A model generated the notes under the pieces. The model saw nothing but the letters and a program-made list of their open reading frames with translations. It did not search any database and had not been told where the DNA came from. Shown here in pieces: positions 6,249-21,942 of a DNA stretch of 22,861 bases. The stretch spans positions 1 to 22,861 of IMG/VR virus record IMGVR_UViG_3300025646_000405; one strand, written 5' to 3'. The stretch's first letter is position 1, and each line of letters starts with the position of its first letter. The stretch comes from a virus. The position numbers and the translations under genes were made by a program.

Positions 6249-6793
6249 AAAGATCCCCCTGATCTTAATCCCTTTGTTACTTTCATATAATCAAAAGTTA
6301 AAGAAATATTAAACGAAACAAAATTGGTTTCTCCCATACTCAGATCAATTTGTCCAACTACGTTTGGCCAGCATTTAAAAAGTTGAATTGTTCTCAAAAC
6401 AGTTCCATTTAAATCTAATTGATTTACTCTCCAATTAGTTTGGTAACGATTATATGCAAAATCATTGTTTTCAACTCTATGGGTTACGTGACCATCCATG
6501 GCCTCTTTCCATTGATTAAATGCTTTCCACAAATTGTTTACGTTGTTATCATCATAAACACCAACCAACCAAGGTGTATAAGAACGATCCCCGGCAAAAG
6601 TAACAGTTCTTCCTCTATAAGGAATACCTATTGTATTAATTTGTGCACCGGGCAAAGATGAAGAAACAATTTTAAATTTTGATTCTGTATTGTTTATAGA
6701 AATACCAGATGGCCAAGAAGGAAAAACTTCAAACCTATTTGGTCTGCTTCCGCCTCTAAATCCATTTTTAAAATTTAATATTGAATTGCTCAT
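6245..6793 (-). CDS. gp19: Tail tube protein gp19, paralogue B
   Basis: This is the first of the two tandem tube genes (182 aa). It aligns end to end with its downstream neighbour: FKNGFRGGSRPNRFEVF at the start, a VYDD segment, W-x-x-F-x-x-W in the middle, TNWRVNQLDLNG, a CWP triplet, and FNISLTFDYMKV at the end. Spacing of these blocks is the same in both copies, so the pair comes from duplication followed by divergence. It directly follows the sheath gene with a TAATG overlap and no evident ribosome site, so it is probably translated by coupling to the sheath. Tube subunits stack as hexameric rings inside the sheath. Confidence 0.87.
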   Translation of the reverse strand: MSNSILNFKNGFRGGSRPNRFEVFPSWPSGISINNTESKFKIVSSSLPGAQINTIGIPYRGRTVTFAGDRSYTPWLVGVYDDNNVNNLWKAFNQWKEAMDGHVTHRVENNDFAYNRYQTNWRVNQLDLNGTVLRTIQLFKCWPNVVGQIDLSMGETNFVSFNISLTFDYMKVTKGLRSGGSL

Positions 6794-8094
6794 TATTGTG
6801 TGAATGTTACGTTAATTGTGAAAGAATCTGTTCCTAGTAAAGGTTTGACAATTAACGTAATATTTAATGTTGAACTATTGTCAGTATTGTTACTTGAATC
6901 ACAAATTATTTGTGTTCTTGTATTATCAAGATATGCAGAATATTGATTTAATTCAGTTTCTATATCGGTGTATACCGAATCTCTTGTTGCAGTGTTGTTA
7001 ATTTCAAATGAGTATTTTAAACCAATTTGATTTAACATTTGAGTTAGTTCTTGTTTCATCTTTGCGGGGCCAACACGATCTTCTACTGTTATTGAAGATG
7101 CACCTGTTGCCCCAACTAAATCTGATCCTAAAAATCTTGGAGTATAATTTACAAAAAAGTTTACTTTTTTGTTTCTTAATGTAGTTCTTTCTGTGCTATT
7201 CCAATCGGTTGATTGGTTGAGCGAGCCATTTAAAACATATGATCTGTCCAGCCCACCTATTGTTAAAAATAGCTCGTTTCTATTTTTAGCTCTTGCAAAA
7301 AATCCAGCCACATCAGATACTGTAGATATTGTATATGACATGCTTCCATTATCTAAAAGACTGCTTACATCAAATGTTGTAGGTGCTTCTGGAGTACTTG
7401 CAGTGGTTTGTGATTTTGTTCCACGAATATTAAATATTCTTTTTGCTTCATTTCCAGTAAGTGATATACCTCCATTAAAAAGTGTAGTAAAATCTAACAT
7501 ATCTGTAGATGCACCTGTAAATCCATTAGAAGCTTGTGTTGGGAACACACCTACGACGTAAGATTTACCTTCAATCCATTTAGCAATATTTCCAAAATTA
7601 TTTTGAGCTATAACAACATCTAAATTTTCATTTGTATTATTTTCAAAGGTATCAAATCCGGCTGTTGTTCCGGTTAGGACCAAATAACCACCATAAGCCA
7701 AATAGTTTATAGCATAGATAAAATCGAGACCACGTGTGGTGGGTGTTATTGTCGATACGCTATATGTAAATAACGCAGCGGTTCCACCGGGACTTTGTGC
7801 CAGTAAAGCATTTGTTATTCCTGAAAGTTTGTTTAAATCGCCTACTAAATCGTTTGGATTTGTGTATAAGATATAAGAATCACTAGTAGTTCCCTTAGCC
7901 GGATTGAAATATGCAGTATTTGATCTTGCATAAATTAACCAACCAAAAAGACCGCCCAGATCAGCAGTAGCCCCGCTGTTATTAAAAGTTGGTGCGACAT
8001 AAGTGCTACCTGCTTGCATAGCAGCGTAAAATGGTACCCCGATTGATTCTTTTTGGTAATGGCTTGGGTTTATAAATGAACTGAGACTGGTCAT
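6793..8094 (-). CDS. gp18: Contractile tail sheath protein gp18
   Basis: This protein polymerises around the tail tube and contracts on infection. It has 433 aa, well short of T4 gp18 (659 aa), so the outer protruding domains of T4 are probably absent. Recognisable features are the N-terminal EIxV-like strand (KESIGVPFYAAMQ), the LAYGGYLVLTG segment after an alpha-helix (about 145-165), the AGFFAR region, and the C-terminal domain with a helix-rich ELTQMLNQIGLKYSFEIN followed by beta strands and a final TFTINV-type strand that normally exchanges with neighbours. The gene stands between large terminase and tail tube, as in T4. It has an AAAGGAT ribosome site and a TATAAATA promoter just upstream. 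Confidence 0.88.
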   Translation of the reverse strand: MTSLSSFINPSHYQKESIGVPFYAAMQAGSTYVAPTFNNSGATADLGGLFGWLIYARSNTAYFNPAKGTTSDSYILYTNPNDLVGDLNKLSGITNALLAQSPGGTAALFTYSVSTITPTTRGLDFIYAINYLAYGGYLVLTGTTAGFDTFENNTNENLDVVIAQNNFGNIAKWIEGKSYVVGVFPTQASNGFTGASTDMLDFTTLFNGGISLTGNEAKRIFNIRGTKSQTTASTPEAPTTFDVSSLLDNGSMSYTISTVSDVAGFFARAKNRNELFLTIGGLDRSYVLNGSLNQSTDWNSTERTTLRNKKVNFFVNYTPRFLGSDLVGATGASSITVEDRVGPAKMKQELTQMLNQIGLKYSFEINNTATRDSVYTDIETELNQYSAYLDNTRTQIICDSSNNTDNSSTLNITLIVKPLLGTDSFTINVTFTQ

Positions 8095-14918: not shown

Positions 14919-15728
14919 TTAAACATAAACACCAGTCAAATCTGCTATTTGCGATAATGTTAATGACGTTTCGTGTGTTCCTAAACTTAAAACATGTTTA
15001 ACACCAATTATATAATAATATCCAGTCAAAAATGAATTTGTATTGTTATAAGGATATCCGCTGGCATTATTGACATTTAAGTAAACAAGTTGTCCAATTT
15101 TTAAATTAAAATCACCAGCAACAGTAACCATGGATTTTTTACTGCTTTTGAATGCTTCTAAAAATTCTGCACGATTTACTGGTGTTTGCTTTGGAGTATT
15201 CCAAAATGTTGCATCATTTAATCTTAATTTTAAATATGCTTCATAGTTTTGTCTAATATCAGGACACGTTGTGCTATAAGGTGCATGAGGACTGCCCCAG
15301 AGACATCCCAACCAATCCTCTCCTAAAAAATTTTCATATGTTGGGCCTTTTACTAATTGGCCTTCATATGACATATCATCAAATAAAGTATCTTTTTCTA
15401 AATCTTCGCTAGTCGGAAATTCTCCGAATTCTATTGGTTTTGCTCCAGTCCACAGAGTGTAGCCATATACGGGAATTGGTTCACCCGGTCCCTGTTGTCC
15501 TTCTGGTACTGGTCCTTCTTCTTCTCCAACCTGTTGTAAAAAACCTAAACTTTTAGCTAAATCTTCAATTTCTGGAAATTTTTTAAAACACTCCGATATT
15601 GAAGCTGGGGTTCCCGTTGCACCTCTTGTTAATTGTGCATTAGCACATTCATAAACACCCTTCGATGTTACTGAATATTTTGCTTCTTTGCTATTGTTTG
15701 AACCATATATTTTTATTTGATCGCTCAT
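14919..15728 (-). CDS. Hub-domain baseplate protein (269 aa), possible C-terminal part of a split hub
   Basis: The start is placed at 15728, where ATG overlaps the previous stop (ATGA) and GGAG lies 9 nt upstream; an in-frame ATG at 15761 lies inside the previous gene and lacks this site. The C-terminal region reads AGDFNLKIGQLVYLNVNN, then TGYYYIIGVKHVLSLGTHET and SLTLSQIADL. This is the G-x-x-x-L-x-x-G-x-x-V ... Y-x-I-x-x-V-x-H ... T-x-L-x-L pattern of the barrel domain that ends contractile-tail hub proteins (T4 gp27/P2 gpD type). The N-terminal half is unrecognised and contains a Pro/Glu/Gly-rich linker at about 65-85. Calling it a hub subunit is inference; the motif is seen. Confidence 0.6.
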   Translation of the reverse strand: MSDQIKIYGSNNSKEAKYSVTSKGVYECANAQLTRGATGTPASISECFKKFPEIEDLAKSLGFLQQVGEEEGPVPEGQQGPGEPIPVYGYTLWTGAKPIEFGEFPTSEDLEKDTLFDDMSYEGQLVKGPTYENFLGEDWLGCLWGSPHAPYSTTCPDIRQNYEAYLKLRLNDATFWNTPKQTPVNRAEFLEAFKSSKKSMVTVAGDFNLKIGQLVYLNVNNASGYPYNNTNSFLTGYYYIIGVKHVLSLGTHETSLTLSQIADLTGVYV

Positions 15729-17734
15729 TGACAATCTCCATCTACAACATTTTCTGCCCAAAAATAATTTAAATATTGTCCCTCATAATTTGCATAAACG
15801 GTATTTCCACTTTCAACCAAAAGTTGTTCAAGTGGTATTCTATGCATTTTTACTATGTGGTATATATCACCACTGTTACCAAATGTGGCTTTCGCACCTA
15901 TTGGTCTGTATCTAAATCCACCATATAAAGTCGGATGCCATCCCGGTGGCAGATATGTTCCAGACAAACCACGTTCATTTAAATTTATTGCCCAAGAATC
16001 GTCTTGCGTTAATCCAGATTGAAGTGATGCGTCCAATTCCCATTTTTCTAATTCATGGAAATAATATGTTGATCCAGAATATCCACTTGCTCCAGTTGGA
16101 CCACTAGCACCATAAGGGCTATTAAATTTAATTTTAGACCATTGATATCGATATTTTTTAGCATCGTTTAATGTTTGTGTTGCTTTATTGTCTATTTCAT
16201 ATTTCAATAATGCAGCAAAAAAGCTATCTTCTTCTTTGCCCATACAACAAAGCGAATACATTACAAAATTTTGCAATTCTATTTTTCTGATTTTTTCTAA
16301 ACGACTTTCTTCATTTCCTATTGTATGTTTAAAAGCATCATAACGAATCTTCATAACCTTTGAAAGATTTGAAGCTGTACCCCCAATAGAAATATTATTG
16401 TTTTCTAAGTGATTTGGATAATGTGGATGTATTTCTGTCATATCAAACATATTTTTCCATATGTCTGTGCTGTCAATAAACGGCATAATGCCTGTCAATC
16501 CCATAAATGTTAAATTTGCTATATTTTTTTCTATTCCCGGATTATTTGATAGGTGATTTATAAAATTTTCTCCATTTACAGCATCCAGAGAATCATAAAA
16601 TCCCCACTTTTTATCATAAATTAATTGATCTGCTTGCTCAATAGCATATGTTGCGCCGGAAGATCCCACTATTTCAATATTATATTTTTGACCTTCATCT
16701 TGAAATTGAAATGTGAGAGCAGTTGTAGTATAATTTCCATAAGATACCCCATCCATAGGAAGATTAGAAGGAACACTATCTAAAAATTTAGGAGTCTTTC
16801 TAATATAATAAAAATTTTTAGATAAAAATTGAAAACTGGGGTTTGTTACATAGGCATAACATTTTCGATAGTCTTTTCTATCATTGAATCTACGAATAAC
16901 ATCATCGCCATCATATATTGCAAGATTTCTAAAATCTCTGTCTATAGTAGAAAAACTGGGGTCATTTGATGGAACCCGATAAAAATATTTAAAATTTACG
17001 GATCCATCAAATTCAGTCCAAAGCATAAAATTAGGCAAGCCCACATTGCTTATGCTTTCATTTGTTTTTTGCTTATCACCTACGGAATATTCTGAAACAT
17101 AATTCAAATATTGTAATGAATTGTCACTAGTTACTTGTTCTCTTGTTGATATAGTGTTTAATGGTTTATATAAAATGTAATTTGATGCAAAATCGTTATA
17201 TCCAGTTATACCAAAATTTGATGTATTAAACCCATTACCAACCGCATAGGTTACACCATTCATCGCGGTCTGCAAATCTTTTTTAATTACTTCTTTTACA
17301 AAATCATTTACTTTAAATACTTCCGGATGTTTTAAATTTAAATTTTTGACAAGAGATTTTTTTTGTATGTGTGTATAATACAAATTGGTAAAATATATTC
17401 CAACAAAATTTTGTTCAGTGTCTGAGGCAGCGTTATTTAAATAAGAAACACCAGTTATTTCAAATATCCAAAAATTTTTATTAAAAAACTCTATTTTGAT
17501 TCGATCTATTTTATATTGTAATAAACGAGAAACTATGTCAAGTTTATCTTGTACTAAAATTACACCTTTTGGCAAAAGATCTGTAACATCTTCTACTAGT
17601 TCTATTCTTTCAAATAAACATTCAATATTTTGTTTTGTTATGTCAATCGGCTGTCCAGTTGCAGAAGAACTGTATAAAATAATAGAACTAATAGTAGAAT
17701 ATGCCGGATTAAAACGTGGAGAACGGTTTGCCAT
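15725..17734 (-). CDS. Large baseplate hub candidate, gp27-like N-terminal half (669 aa)
   Basis: The N-terminal 150 residues look like a hub D1-type domain: ECLFERIELVEDVTDLLPKG then VILVQDKLDIVSRLLQYKID, then a strand-rich region ending in a FTNLYYTHIQKKSLVKNLNL segment. The rest (about 170-669) is beta-rich, aromatic-rich and not recognised. Residues 542-556 are five collagen-like Gly-X-Y triplets (GASGPTGASGYSGST). T4 gp27 is only 391 aa, so this would be an enlarged form. It starts 1 nt after the gp53 stop without a ribosome site and overlaps the next gene as ATGA. Its position between gp53 and gp25 supports a baseplate role; the hub identity is moderate. Confidence 0.55.
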   Translation of the reverse strand: MANRSPRFNPAYSTISSIILYSSSATGQPIDITKQNIECLFERIELVEDVTDLLPKGVILVQDKLDIVSRLLQYKIDRIKIEFFNKNFWIFEITGVSYLNNAASDTEQNFVGIYFTNLYYTHIQKKSLVKNLNLKHPEVFKVNDFVKEVIKKDLQTAMNGVTYAVGNGFNTSNFGITGYNDFASNYILYKPLNTISTREQVTSDNSLQYLNYVSEYSVGDKQKTNESISNVGLPNFMLWTEFDGSVNFKYFYRVPSNDPSFSTIDRDFRNLAIYDGDDVIRRFNDRKDYRKCYAYVTNPSFQFLSKNFYYIRKTPKFLDSVPSNLPMDGVSYGNYTTTALTFQFQDEGQKYNIEIVGSSGATYAIEQADQLIYDKKWGFYDSLDAVNGENFINHLSNNPGIEKNIANLTFMGLTGIMPFIDSTDIWKNMFDMTEIHPHYPNHLENNNISIGGTASNLSKVMKIRYDAFKHTIGNEESRLEKIRKIELQNFVMYSLCCMGKEEDSFFAALLKYEIDNKATQTLNDAKKYRYQWSKIKFNSPYGASGPTGASGYSGSTYYFHELEKWELDASLQSGLTQDDSWAINLNERGLSGTYLPPGWHPTLYGGFRYRPIGAKATFGNSGDIYHIVKMHRIPLEQLLVESGNTVYANYEGQYLNYFWAENVVDGDCQ

Positions 17735-17735
17735 A

Positions 17736-18584
17736 TCAAATATAATTAGCCGTAATAAAAGAAGATTTTAACAATCCTATTGAATCTATTGGGTACGCTT
17801 TTATAATTTTTGGAGTTTCAGTTATTAATTGTTCAAAAGTAACTTCAGATGTCTCTTCCAGATCACCTTCAGATTTTGGTTCTTCGACTCCTTTATCGAT
17901 GTCGCCTTTTGATCCTCTACCACCTGTAAATTTTAGCTCTAAAACTACTTTACCAGTTTTTGGATTGAAATTGTACGCTGGTTTACTTGATGCAGGCTGT
18001 GTTACTGTATTTACTAAATTTTTTTGTATTTCATAATTACCACCTGTACCCGGATATATTACAACATAGTTTGATCCAGTTGTACCAGAAGTTAGCGCGG
18101 TTCCTTGCTTTTGTTCTTTTACAAACATGCTATCCGAATAATAAAAATCTTCATCTACTATAGTAAATGCGCCATTTAAATCAAAATTTCCAACTGAAGA
18201 GTAAGAAGCAGAATTTCCACTATTTGAAATTTGATTTAAAATAATACTTCCCTTTGGAAAAACATATGCTGTTGTGCCTGCGGTATCACCGGAAAAAGTT
18301 ACATTTAACTTGGGTTCTATTTCTTTTTTTGCTATTTCTGTATTAATGGGATTAATTAAAAATGGATTAAAATTATTGTTTGCTAAAACAAATATCCAAA
18401 AACTGTCCGGATCTTCATAAACTTGAAATGACGCTTCTATGAGTGTGCTTTTATCATCAAATGTTATTGAAGAATCTGGTGGGTCTAATTTAGATGAATC
18501 GATATAAGTAAAAAAATCACTTATTTGAAATTCACCTATCGTGGTTTCAAAAGATATTTTTGGTAAATTTTCAAAATATTTCAT
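17736..18584 (-). CDS. gp53: Baseplate wedge protein gp53
   Basis: This wedge protein clamps neighbouring wedges together. The start is placed at the ATG at 18584 (MKYFENLPKISFETTIGEFQ), which has GGAAG at a good distance and lies 1 nt after the gp48-like stop; a longer frame from 18629 has no such support. Length is 282 aa (T4: 196). The family mark is the LysM-like segment near residue 60-75, YEDPDSFWIFVLANNNFNPF, where gp53 proteins have a P-x-x-x-W-x-x-x-x-x-N-x-x-x-P pattern. The central part is beta-rich with Ser/Thr/Gly-rich strands; a charged Gly/Lys/Glu linker follows before the C-terminal AYPIDSIGLLKSSFI. Confidence 0.75.
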   Translation of the reverse strand: MKYFENLPKISFETTIGEFQISDFFTYIDSSKLDPPDSSITFDDKSTLIEASFQVYEDPDSFWIFVLANNNFNPFLINPINTEIAKKEIEPKLNVTFSGDTAGTTAYVFPKGSIILNQISNSGNSASYSSVGNFDLNGAFTIVDEDFYYSDSMFVKEQKQGTALTSGTTGSNYVVIYPGTGGNYEIQKNLVNTVTQPASSKPAYNFNPKTGKVVLELKFTGGRGSKGDIDKGVEEPKSEGDLEETSEVTFEQLITETPKIIKAYPIDSIGLLKSSFITANYI

Positions 18585-18585
18585 A

Positions 18586-19404
18586 TTAATTTCTTCCAGC
18601 AGATATTTCAGACTTAGACCAAACTGCATTTACTGATGGAACATAAGTTCCAGTTTCAAATTCTGTAAATTGTAAGCCCAACAATGTTACAGAAGATGCT
18701 CCATTTGGTAAATACCTTATTATTGGATCTGAATCATCATTCTTTTTAACAACAACAGTATTTAATACACATACAAGAGGTTCGCCTAACCAATTTGCAG
18801 TCAAATTTCTTTCTCCACCAATAGCAACTCCATTACCAGATGTAACTACCAGAGTCCATAAATTTTGAGGATAAGATCTTTCAGGCAAACCATTTGCTAC
18901 AGTTGGATAGGATGCTTTTCTAAATGTGCCGCAAATTCCTTCTATTTGATCCGCTTCAAATTGATTTTTTGGAACTAAAACGTATTGAAAATAATATTGC
19001 TTTCTTCCTTCAGAGATCATAGACATTTCAGCAATATTGCTAAACCTTCTATAAGTTGATGTCGCAAACACCCTTTCATAATAAGAAAGTGCTGGAGCAG
19101 CCATTCTAGCAACCATTGATAGTATTCCACTAACACCAACCCCACCACTGTTAGCTAATCCTGCTCTTGTTAATATGGGGCCTACTGGATTGCTGTTGCT
19201 CTCTCCATATTCGTGTTGTATCTGATAACCCGGTTCCTTTGGCATTGGAAGCCGTATATGACCACCAAAAGCAGAAGAACGAGATATTACTCCAGATCTG
19301 GTTCTTTCCGTATTGACAAGGGAATAAGGTGCACCAAAAAAATTCAACCATAAAGGTTGTTCGTTAGCGTATTGACCTGAAGGATATTCGTAATAAAGAC
19401 CCAT
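18586..19404 (-). CDS. gp48: Baseplate tail-tube cap protein, gp48-like (gp48/gp54 family)
   Basis: This protein sits on the baseplate hub and starts the tail tube. It has 272 aa (T4 gp48: 364, gp54: 320). Typical segments are PLWLNFFGAPYS (about 19-30), IRLPMPKEPGYQIQHEYGES (about 50-70), a hydrophobic Gly/Ala part at about 80-105, then RKQYYFQYVLVPKNQFEADQ followed by IEGICGTFRKASYPT, the tube-fold helix region, and VTLLGLQFTEFETGTYVPS near the end. The two T4 relatives are homologous, so gp54 is an alternative name. The ATG lies 6 nt after a CTAAATA box, and no ribosome site is seen. It is divergent from gp4 across a 35-bp gap. Confidence 0.72.
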   Translation of the reverse strand: MGLYYEYPSGQYANEQPLWLNFFGAPYSLVNTERTRSGVISRSSAFGGHIRLPMPKEPGYQIQHEYGESNSNPVGPILTRAGLANSGGVGVSGILSMVARMAAPALSYYERVFATSTYRRFSNIAEMSMISEGRKQYYFQYVLVPKNQFEADQIEGICGTFRKASYPTVANGLPERSYPQNLWTLVVTSGNGVAIGGERNLTANWLGEPLVCVLNTVVVKKNDDSDPIIRYLPNGASSVTLLGLQFTEFETGTYVPSVNAVWSKSEISAGRN

Positions 19405-19439: not shown

Positions 19440-19859
19440 ATGGCTTACAAAACTAAATTTTTACCAAAAAACAAAGAAAAATACATAGGAGATGTTGGGG
19501 CAATAGTTTGCCGTTCCCTGTGGGAAAGATCTGTTTGTAAATTTTTTGATGAAAATTCTAACATCATAAAATGGTCATCTGAAGAAATATCAATTCCATA
19601 TTTAAATCCTTTGGATAATAAAATGCACAATTATTATCCAGATTTTTTAGTACAATTTAAAACAAATGAAAATGTAAAAACATGGTTGATTGAAGTTAAA
19701 CCAAAAAAACAAACATTCTTAAAAGAAAATTGTTCCAAAAAAGAAAAAATAACATGGATAATAAATTCTTCTAAATGGAAAGCTGCTGAAAACTATTGTA
19801 AAAAAAATAACTTTGAATTTAAACTAATAACAGAAAAAGAGATATTCGCAAATGTCTAA
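19440..19859 (+). CDS. gp4: Head completion nuclease gp4
   Basis: T4 gp4 (also called gp50/gp65 region) acts late on the packaged head so that it can join the tail. The protein has 139 aa (T4: 150). Family landmarks are F-x-P-x-N-x-x-K-Y-x-G-D (residues 7-18), CRSLWERSVCKFFDENSNII (24-43), KWSSEEISIPYLNP and the N-Y-Y-P-D-F segment. The residues form a PD-(D/E)xK nuclease pattern: Pro67-Asp68, then Glu85-Val-Lys87, followed by PKKQ. The C-terminal SSKWKAAENYCKKNNFEFKL and ITEKEI are also typical. It leads the rightward operon and overlaps the next gene by 8 nt. Confidence 0.93.
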   Translation: MAYKTKFLPKNKEKYIGDVGAIVCRSLWERSVCKFFDENSNIIKWSSEEISIPYLNPLDNKMHNYYPDFLVQFKTNENVKTWLIEVKPKKQTFLKENCSKKEKITWIINSSKWKAAENYCKKNNFEFKLITEKEIFANV

Positions 19860-20445
19860 TCCACAAAATTCAATTTTAGAAATTAAAAACTTTTTTAATA
19901 GACACGGCGGTCTACAAAGAGATAATAGATATTCTGTTTCTTTTTTTGGATTGCCTGCACGAATTCCACAAATTCCAGAGACAGAATTAATTTCCTTGGG
20001 AATAAATGCTGGAGCAAGATCAATAGATGGTCTAGCAGATAATTTAATGGGTTATGGCCCCGGCAGAATTGTGCCCAGATCACAAAAATATGTTGGAGGA
20101 ATTCTTTTAACTTTTCCTGTAACACACGATAATTTTATAATAAATTTCTTTGATGCTTGGTTCAATGAAATTTATTCTGGTACAAGATTCGGTGGTGGAG
20201 GAGGAGGATCCTCTCAGAGACCTAGAGGGCCATATCAATTAGAATTTTATGATACCATAGTAAAAAATTGTGGATTAAAGTTAAAATTGTTAGACTTAAA
20301 TGGAAATATAAATCGTGTTTTAACTTTTTATGAAGTATATCCGTTAGAAGCTCTTCCTTTAGAATTAAATATGATGCAACAAAATGAATATTTAAAATAT
20401 CAAGTTTTAATGAATTATAGAGAATACAACATAGGAGACAGGTGA
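19852..20445 (+). CDS. Tube-fold baseplate protein, gp54-like (tail tube initiator candidate)
   Basis: The protein has 197 aa with the tail-tube pattern: F-F-N-R-H-G-G-x-x-R-D-N-R-Y (residues 14-27) followed by SVSFFGLP, a G-x-x-x-x-P turn, then VGGILLTFPVTHDNFIINFF and DAWFNEIY (81-108). After a run of six Gly (114-119) come LEFYDTIVKNCGLKLKLLDL-type strands and a C-terminal LMNYREYN. This resembles the gp19 genes at 5715-6793 and the T4 gp48/gp54 tube-fold proteins. Position just before gp26 in a baseplate operon favours a tube initiator over a bulk tube subunit. The ATG overlaps gp4; the next gene overlaps its stop (ATGA). Confidence 0.65.
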   Translation: MSNPQNSILEIKNFFNRHGGLQRDNRYSVSFFGLPARIPQIPETELISLGINAGARSIDGLADNLMGYGPGRIVPRSQKYVGGILLTFPVTHDNFIINFFDAWFNEIYSGTRFGGGGGGSSQRPRGPYQLEFYDTIVKNCGLKLKLLDLNGNINRVLTFYEVYPLEALPLELNMMQQNEYLKYQVLMNYREYNIGDR

Positions 20446-21107
20446 TGACAGTTTTAAAAATGATACGTGAAAGTTTTCCAAAATACAAATGTGTGTTGCC
20501 AATTTGTAAAAAGGAAGTGTATTTTACACCATTTAAAATAAAAGATGCAAAAAATATTGCAATAATTTTACAAGAACAAAATAAACATTTAGCATTTTCT
20601 ACTATGATTGATATCATCAAAGAAAATACCGAAAATCTAAATGTAACAGAATTAACTGGTTTGGACGCAGAATATTTGTTTCTTCAAATAAGATCTAAAA
20701 GTGTTGATGAAAATTTAAATTTAATATTTAACAATCAAAAAGTTCAATTAAATATAAATGACATAACATTTTCTGGTCAGATTCAAGAAAAAACAATATC
20801 AGTCGGATCAGATATTGTTTTATCTTTAAAAACACCCAAGGTAAAACAACTTTTAAAATTAAAATCTTTTGATAAAAACGAATTAATGAAAGCTAGCATT
20901 CAAAGCGTTTCAATAAAAAATGAAGTATATGAATGCAATAAATTTTTAACTGACGAATTAAAAGAAATTTTAGAAAATTTACCACTAAAAGTTGGAAATA
21001 AATTTGAAGAATTTTTAAATTCCGAACCTCAATTGTGTGCATTAATTGACATAAACAATGAAAAAAAGAAAGTGACGGGTATTCTCAATTTTTTTACTTA
21101 TCGGTAA
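20442..21107 (+). CDS. gp26: Baseplate hub assembly protein gp26-like (0-frame product, 221 aa)
   Basis: The sequence begins MTVLKMIRESFPKYKCVLPI and continues as VYFTPFKIKDAKNIAIILQE, which fits the T4 gp26 baseplate family: a short beta N-terminus, then F-K-x-x-D-x-K helix. T4 gp26 (208 aa) helps build the central hub. The rest is a mixed helical/beta domain ending in beta strands. The start has AGGAG and overlaps the previous stop. The frame ends at a TAA (21105-21107) that lies inside the 5' arm of a hairpin directly after a T7 slippery site. A -1 shift there would extend the protein by 67 codons. Confidence 0.75.
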   Translation: MMTVLKMIRESFPKYKCVLPICKKEVYFTPFKIKDAKNIAIILQEQNKHLAFSTMIDIIKENTENLNVTELTGLDAEYLFLQIRSKSVDENLNLIFNNQKVQLNINDITFSGQIQEKTISVGSDIVLSLKTPKVKQLLKLKSFDKNELMKASIQSVSIKNEVYECNKFLTDELKEILENLPLKVGNKFEEFLNSEPQLCALIDINNEKKKVTGILNFFTYR

Positions 21108-21148
21108 AGTTTTTTGATTTAACTGATTATTATTCGTCTAACTTTACC
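21089..21148 (+). promoter_or_regulatory. Candidate programmed -1 frameshift signal
   Basis: In the 0 frame the sequence is AAT TTT TTT ACT, so T-TTT-TTT (21089-21095) is a canonical X-XXY-YYZ slippery heptamer. After a 7-nt spacer, GGTAAAGTT (21103-21111) can pair perfectly with AACTTTACC (21140-21148) to form a 9-bp stem with a 28-nt loop. The 0-frame stop lies inside the stem. The -1 frame is open from 21062 to 21298 and contains no ATG upstream of the conserved part. A T-run length error in the assembly is the main alternative. Confidence 0.7.
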
Positions 21149-21298
21149 TTGATCACACAATATAACTGGTCTATACAAGAAATAGAAAATCTAATTCCTT
21201 GGGAAAGAGAAGTGTATATGACTATATTAATTTCAAATGAGGAAAAGAAAAAACAAAGTCTTGCAGAAAAACAGATGGCAAAGGAGTTTAGAATTTAA
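21095..21298 (+). CDS. -1 frame extension of the gp26-like protein (67 codons)
   Basis: Read in the -1 frame after the T7 run, the sequence continues YLSVKFFDLTDYYSSNFTLI, then TQYNWSIQEIENLIPWEREV, then YMTILISNEEKKKQ and a short charged tail. The I-P-W-E-R-E-V-Y segment followed by a charged helix resembles the C-terminal helix of T4-like hub assembly proteins and other tail assembly chaperones. There is no ATG in this frame before the Met inside the conserved helix, and no ribosome site, so independent translation is unlikely. The full fusion would be 285 aa. The stop TAA overlaps the start of the next gene as TAATG, evidence that ribosomes do reach this point. Confidence 0.72.
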   Translation, partial: YLSVKFFDLTDYYSSNFTLITQYNWSIQEIENLIPWEREVYMTILISNEEKKKQSLAEKQMAKEFRI

Positions 21299-21942
21299 TG
21301 AATGAAGAAAATTTTTCAATTGATATTGATGCAGAAAAACAATTGATGGCCCCAATTATCAATTTTGAAAGTAATCAAACACCTGATGTTGGTGGCGTTC
21401 TAGATCCTAGTCCTGTTGAAAATCAATTATTATCTTCCACAATAGATTCTCCAGAATTAATAACAGAAAATATACAACCAAGTTTACAAGAAATTAATTT
21501 TGAAAATACAATAATTGAAACATCTTCAGAACAAATACTAAATGAAAATTCATTTGTAGAACAAAACGCACAAGAAATAAATTTTGAAACAAATTTTGTA
21601 AACGAAATTACTGAACAACCAAAAGTAGAACTTCCAGAATCAACTTTATTTGAAAATACCGTAATTGAAAATGCATCCGTTCAATTACCAAATTATTCAG
21701 AAACTATAAAACAATTTAATGTTGCCCCAAGCCCAGAATTGATAATGCAAAAAACTGAAAGATTGGAAGAACAAATTGTTTCTATGGGAAATAGTATAAA
21801 CAATTTAGAAAATTCTGGACGCGGTAAGTGGTTACATCCAAGAGAAAAAGATAATTTTGAAGAAAGACCTACAGTAGAACCAAGTAATCTTATATTTGAT
21901 ATAAAAATAAATCAAATGAAAAACTTACCAAATTGGGTATAA
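21298..21942 (+). CDS. Asn/Glu-rich 214-aa protein of unknown function
   Basis: I do not recognise a family. The first 130 residues are acidic, Asn/Glu/Ser-rich and probably disordered, with degenerate copies of an I-N-F-E-N/T-x-x-I-E unit near residues 19-24, 64-74, 92-101 and 116-125. Residues about 148-172 form a short coiled-coil-like helix (ELIMQKTERLEEQIVSMGNS). The last 40 residues (GRGKWLHPREKDNF onward) look structured and basic-aromatic. It starts at the stop of the -1 extension (TAATG) and ends at the bidirectional terminator. It lies directly after a putative frameshifting chaperone, where tape measure genes sit in other tailed phages, but it is far too short for a T4-length tail; a hub or tape-associated role is speculation. 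Confidence 0.75.
   Translation: MNEENFSIDIDAEKQLMAPIINFESNQTPDVGGVLDPSPVENQLLSSTIDSPELITENIQPSLQEINFENTIIETSSEQILNENSFVEQNAQEINFETNFVNEITEQPKVELPESTLFENTVIENASVQLPNYSETIKQFNVAPSPELIMQKTERLEEQIVSMGNSINNLENSGRGKWLHPREKDNFEERPTVEPSNLIFDIKINQMKNLPNWV

Follow-up and report, generated by a model that had tools for sequence, protein, structure and literature searches.

Gene organisation at the gp26-like locus

The stretch of DNA analysed here (the window, 22,861 nucleotides, the full length of IMG/VR virus record IMGVR_UViG_3300025646_000405) carries a gene whose 0-frame product was assigned to the family of T4 gp26, in agreement with a sequence-only reading made earlier on this DNA. The protein matched PF12322 (T4 baseplate protein) with E=5.7e-26 (92 bits, cutoff 24.5) and phrog_150 (baseplate hub) with E=9e-26 over profile positions 9–232 of 282. 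An AGGAG ribosome-binding site is located at 20433–20437, 7 nt ahead of the ATG at 20445. This ATG is probably the real start and the listed GTG start at 20442 wrong, which would give products of about 220 and 284 amino acids in place of the 221 and 285 proposed earlier.

An AlphaFold2 model was available for the 0-frame (N-terminal) part alone, as no single frame encodes the fusion, and had a pLDDT of 90.7. Its best named matches in BFVD, which are predicted viral proteins, were T4-like baseplate hub subunits and hub assembly chaperones (E about 1e-12). Among the solved structures listed as matches, the top probability was that of the HK97 tail assembly chaperone (TAC, 2ob9; prob 0.47, TM 0.52 by target), a fold match that is not significant (E=2.0) and to a protein half as long as that of the window. 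A sequence-profile search of solved structures gave nothing relevant.

Towards its end, the 0 frame reads AAT TTT TTT ACT TAT CGG TAA, where the first T of the run of seven is the third base of the Asn codon. The coordinates and the X_XXY_YYZ phase of the heptamer, given before by the sequence-only reading, were confirmed. The stop codon does follow soon after the slip, but the distance of 12 nt mentioned there includes the stop codon itself (Table 1). Starting at 21062, the −1 frame contains no stop until a TAA at 21296–21298 that overlaps the ATG of the next gene (TAATG), the same limits and overlap as noted earlier. From its upstream stop to the 14th codon past the slip, this frame contains no ATG, GTG or TTG in the window, consistent with the earlier remark that its conserved part is not preceded by an ATG. 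Counting the re-read base 21095, the extension comprises 67 amino acids; it matched phrog_634 (‘baseplate hub assembly catalyst’, T4 gp51) with E=1.3e-17. A weaker match was to positions 243–279 of phrog_150, the end that the 0-frame protein lacks.

Table 1. Features of the gp26–gp51 locus, in positions of the window.
Feature	Position	Strand	Basis or remark
Short form, ~220 amino acids, T4 gp26-family baseplate hub assembly protein, TAC-N (lambda G-like) part	20445–21107	+	PF12322, phrog_150, AlphaFold2
Weak SD-like remnant CGGG	21076–21079	+	Compared with near relatives
Slippery heptamer U_UUU_UUU, in phase	21089–21095	+	Kept as U_UUU_UU(C/U/A) in related loci
−1-frame extension, T4 gp51 homologue (specific to TAC-NC, lambda T-like part)	21096–21298	+	phrog_634
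Possible downstream stimulator, 9-bp stem (21103–21111 with 21140–21148), 7-nt spacer	21103–21148	+	Fold z about −2.5
0-frame stop codon TAA	21105–21107	+	9 nt past the heptamer

The window belongs to a lineage remote from cultured phages, its terminase being about 49% identical to those of cyanophages. A chaperone of the lambda G/GT type is located between the tail tube and tape measure genes. In the window, a tail-tube-like gene (phrog_45, E=4e-12) is located directly upstream of gp26; the next gene downstream (21298–21942) encodes 214 amino acids, too few for a tape measure, and the 22.9-kb record yielded no gene recognised as one. The counterparts of this gene in L096 (3357–3779) and L098 (3354–3833) give, with the window copy, a range of 140–214 amino acids, so the tape measure of this clade is either encoded elsewhere or unrecognised. 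In Caulobacter phage Cr30, one small gene separates this locus from the annotated tape measure.

The gene after the gp26–gp51 unit varies in length; both termini of its product are conserved, MNE..SID..AEK at the start and EERPT.P.NL.F at the end. The window copy had one weak PHROGs match (E=0.03). It occupies the position of the tape measure of other T4-like phages, or of the small gene preceding it. At 19440–19859, a protein of 139 amino acids with a TnsA-like endonuclease N-terminal domain (PF08722, E=5e-23) was found, which may be the counterpart of the head-completion protein gp4 of T4, based on its size and its position beside the tail genes. Three large proteins in the structural block (15725–17734, 17736–18629 and 6793–8094) had no PHROG match at E 0.001, even though the genes around them are clearly of T4-like head and tail type.

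Conservation of the slip site and alternative readings

Related loci were fetched by N-terminal similarity, not by the slip site, and annotated phages were added. When viral contigs were scanned, the window protein by itself found a near-identical contig only, and scans with a relative and then with the fused alignment returned 80 loci each. T_TTT_TT(C/T/A) was found in phase at the gp26 end in 169 of 169 loci, and the heptamer was present in all clusters at 95% (136), 80% (81) and 50% identity (21). Six T's followed by C make up the heptamer in 116 of the 136 clusters. The alignment of homologues, a check proposed with the sequence-only reading, showed the T run to be kept, and none of the close relatives encodes the whole protein in one frame: the two-frame structure is found in all of them.

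Phe codons in these genes are TTT in 73% of cases, and about 40% of codons have T at the third position. Since only one of 67 Phe-Phe pairs elsewhere in the genes reads T_TTT_TTY, the invariance of the heptamer is not explained by the amino acids or by codon preference. All 33 aligned extensions matched phrog_634, and conservation of the −1 protein starts at the slip in the alignment, not at an ATG.

A gp51 gene is annotated separately, but always in the −1 frame, in P-SSM4, S-SM2, S-ShM2, Mosig, Cr30, EniLVp02, phiN3, D480 and Mendera. Phages at a greater distance have this junction too: it is T_TTT_TTT in Sinorhizobium phage phiN3, as in the window, and T_TTT_TTC in Vibrio phages D480 and EniLVp02, Stenotrophomonas phage Mendera and jumbo phage phi30-3. 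The exception is CBA120 (Ackermannviridae), with a gp51-like −1 extension and no canonical heptamer. Here (L171, 2110–2320), gp26 is followed by GAG ATT TTC ATT TAA, in which there is no X_XXY_YYZ heptamer. In a number of GenBank records (AY940168, GU071095, NC_015281, MT647606 and others), gp51 is annotated as a small gene starting from an internal codon.

The two annotated genes of these GenBank genomes, cyanophages among them, imply that the gp51-like part has a gene to itself, expressed by termination–reinitiation or from an internal start after the gp26 stop, and in 51 of the 81 clusters an ATG within 14 codons past the slip could serve this purpose. The window and its near relatives L093–L099 have no ATG there, however, and 19 of the 81 clusters contain no −1 start codon on either side of the slip. 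Upstream of the slip, a −1 start codon was absent from 79 clusters and present in two, and in seven clusters, including some near relatives, a −1 stop lies directly before the heptamer. By this survey, an independent gp51 start was ruled out as a general explanation. With conservation that begins at the slip and a heptamer that is invariant despite codon preference, a separate gp51 gene is very unlikely. The run of seven T's might also permit some slippage of the RNA polymerase, which would gain or lose a U and produce mixed mRNAs. The six T's plus C of most clusters are nevertheless short for transcriptional slippage, and the exact X_XXY_YYZ phase and an upstream SD-like element point to the ribosome, making a transcriptional origin highly unlikely.

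Homopolymers are error-prone and one extra T would join both frames into a single long gene of 285 amino acids, so that the sequence-only reading had cautioned against a run of seven T's misread for eight. This caution is answered by a second, independent contig (L002/L092) that contains the same seven T's; over 3,660 bp it is 99.78% identical, differing by 8 substitutions and not by any gap. The relatives also agree in their two-frame structure, many with just six T's and then C; a sequencing or assembly error is extremely unlikely and was rejected as explanation. The in-frame long form of T4, gp51, would be in line with a fused gene that was lately broken by an indel, but lineages with under 50% identity share the exact codon of the break and both parts remain conserved, leaving a negligible probability for non-functional decay.

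A programmed −1 frameshift that extends the gp26-like baseplate-hub assembly protein, the central claim of the sequence-only reading, is on these sequence comparisons strongly supported by the universal slip site, the gp51 homology of the extension, the −1 stops before the slip and the seven T's of the second contig. The window is very probably carrying the TAC locus of an uncultured T4-like myovirus, which encodes the gp26 short form and a slip-made gp26–gp51 fusion, and the locus is put forward as a real candidate for a programmed −1 frameshift, one with very high conservation.

Candidate stimulators of the slip

The 9-bp stem in the window is the predicted minimum-energy fold downstream of the slip (−11 kcal/mol), with 3–5 of 200 shuffles being as good. 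The window is AT-rich, and 0.66% of its positions are followed by a perfect 9-bp stem at 5–9 nt spacing, so that the stem taken by itself counts as modest evidence. Within the clade of the window (L093–L099, 39–52% identical), L093 to L097 have the same stem, again after a 7-nt spacer. L098 has a broken 3′ arm, but another hairpin can form there starting at the same point, and L099 shows no clear hairpin. By pair count, no compensatory changes were found in the near clade and the arms code for conserved residues; the stem is therefore plausible, not proven. There was no Rfam match in 20900–21400. In the wider family, the downstream RNA is barely more structured than shuffles (mean z −1.2) and the stem was rejected as a family-wide stimulator on this value and the lack of covariation in the near clade. 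The hairpin described in the sequence-only reading thus exists as a predicted fold with the 7-nt spacer, but it is clade-specific and did not hold as a general stimulator.

Of the wider-family clusters, 74% have an SD-like GAGGG some 10 nt before the slip, versus 2.6% background. The near relatives contain AAGGAGGT 16–23 nt upstream of the slip, or GAGGTGG in L099. The corresponding element of the window has decayed and reaches −3.9 kcal/mol versus −10 to −11.5 kcal/mol in the relatives. Judging from this distribution, the upstream GAGGG is the likelier stimulator in most relatives, rather than the stem.

Cyanophages, pelagiphages, Cr30, phiN3, EniLVp02/D480 and Mendera share with the window a gp26 followed by a −1-frame gp51 and a T_TTT_TT(C/T) junction. 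These phages usually have T_TTT_TTC with GAGGG about 10 nt upstream, whereas the window has T_TTT_TTT, a weak SD-like element, the 9-bp downstream stem and a next gene that is not of tape-measure size. Tentatively, the slip site could have been kept across the T4-like group while the stimulator was exchanged, with T4 having replaced frameshifting by two genes. The exchange series would then comprise GAGGG about 10 nt upstream in most phages, AAGGAGGT with a hairpin in the clade, and a hairpin alone in the lineage of the window, a possible though somewhat doubtful succession. If true, this would be a natural series in which a programmed frameshift was tuned and then replaced by gene duplication.

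Relation to T4 gp26 and gp51 and to other tail assembly chaperones

The production of a short and a long chaperone by a slip is well known in tailed phages. The tail assembly chaperones of T4-like phages were reportedly identified by Vladimirov, Gautam and Davidson in 2022 (Virology 566:9-15), in a paper whose title is said to refer to a mechanism other than frameshifting.

In T4, gp26 (208 amino acids) and gp51 (249 amino acids) are encoded on opposite strands. The two proteins could be aligned with each other (E=2e-6) and cover positions 14–235 and 13–280, respectively, of the 282 of phrog_150. T4 gp26 ends where the short form of the window ends (GLKEFFEL) and T4 gp51 spans to the end of the long form. 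Judged from these alignments, T4 holds both forms as two genes, gp26 for the short and gp51 for the long. The protein family and the short and long products are the same as in the window, but T4 has two paralogous genes on opposite strands where the window has one gene and a putative −1 slip.

The frameshift type of the tail chaperones and the equivalence of T4 gp26 and gp51 are already known from the literature. Both gp26 and gp51 have been listed as hub assembly chaperones, gp51 being required and not found in the particle (PMC3004832), and a 2016 review considers T4 an exception to G-T frameshifting among long-tailed phages (PMC5009743). In the passage of PMC10885494 that refers to Vladimirov et al. 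2022, some T4-like phages are described with one short gene and one fused gene. A passage of PMC12846349, citing the same work, mentions poly-T slippery sequences in T4-like TAC-N genes. The resemblance to lambda G/GT, and to P2 E/E+E′, consists of a −1 slip, putative in the window, shortly before the short ORF ends, an extension that forms a separate C-terminal domain and a function as tail-assembly helpers (PMC5009743); the slip sequence of lambda is different from that of the window and no sequence similarity was demonstrated here. For the TAC locus of Vandenendeviridae and Andersonviridae comparative evidence points to a −1 shift close to the TAC-N end, on the poly-T motif GTTTTT (PMC12846349), in this case in other phage families and with another slip motif than in the window.

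In the proposed mechanism, most ribosomes would read gp26 up to the stop codon and produce the short form. A fraction, at a slip rate that would set the share of the two forms, would slip back one base on U_UUU_UUU with tRNA-Phe in both sites and continue into the gp51-like domain, yielding the long gp26–gp51 fusion. If the roles are those of lambda G/GT (PMC5009743), coating of the tape measure protein would fall to the short form, and recruitment of tail tube subunits to the C-terminal domain of the few long molecules.

The comparison adds to earlier work in its breadth, in the apparent exchange of stimulators and in a correction of the gp51 annotation, as it suggests that what is called ‘gp51’ in these genomes is for the most part the end of a gp26–gp51 fusion rather than a gene of its own. 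The heptamer in 169 of 169 loci indicates that T4-like phages outside the close relatives of T4 rely on frameshifting as a rule. With frameshifting being usual there, the two-gene arrangement of T4 may be the derived state.
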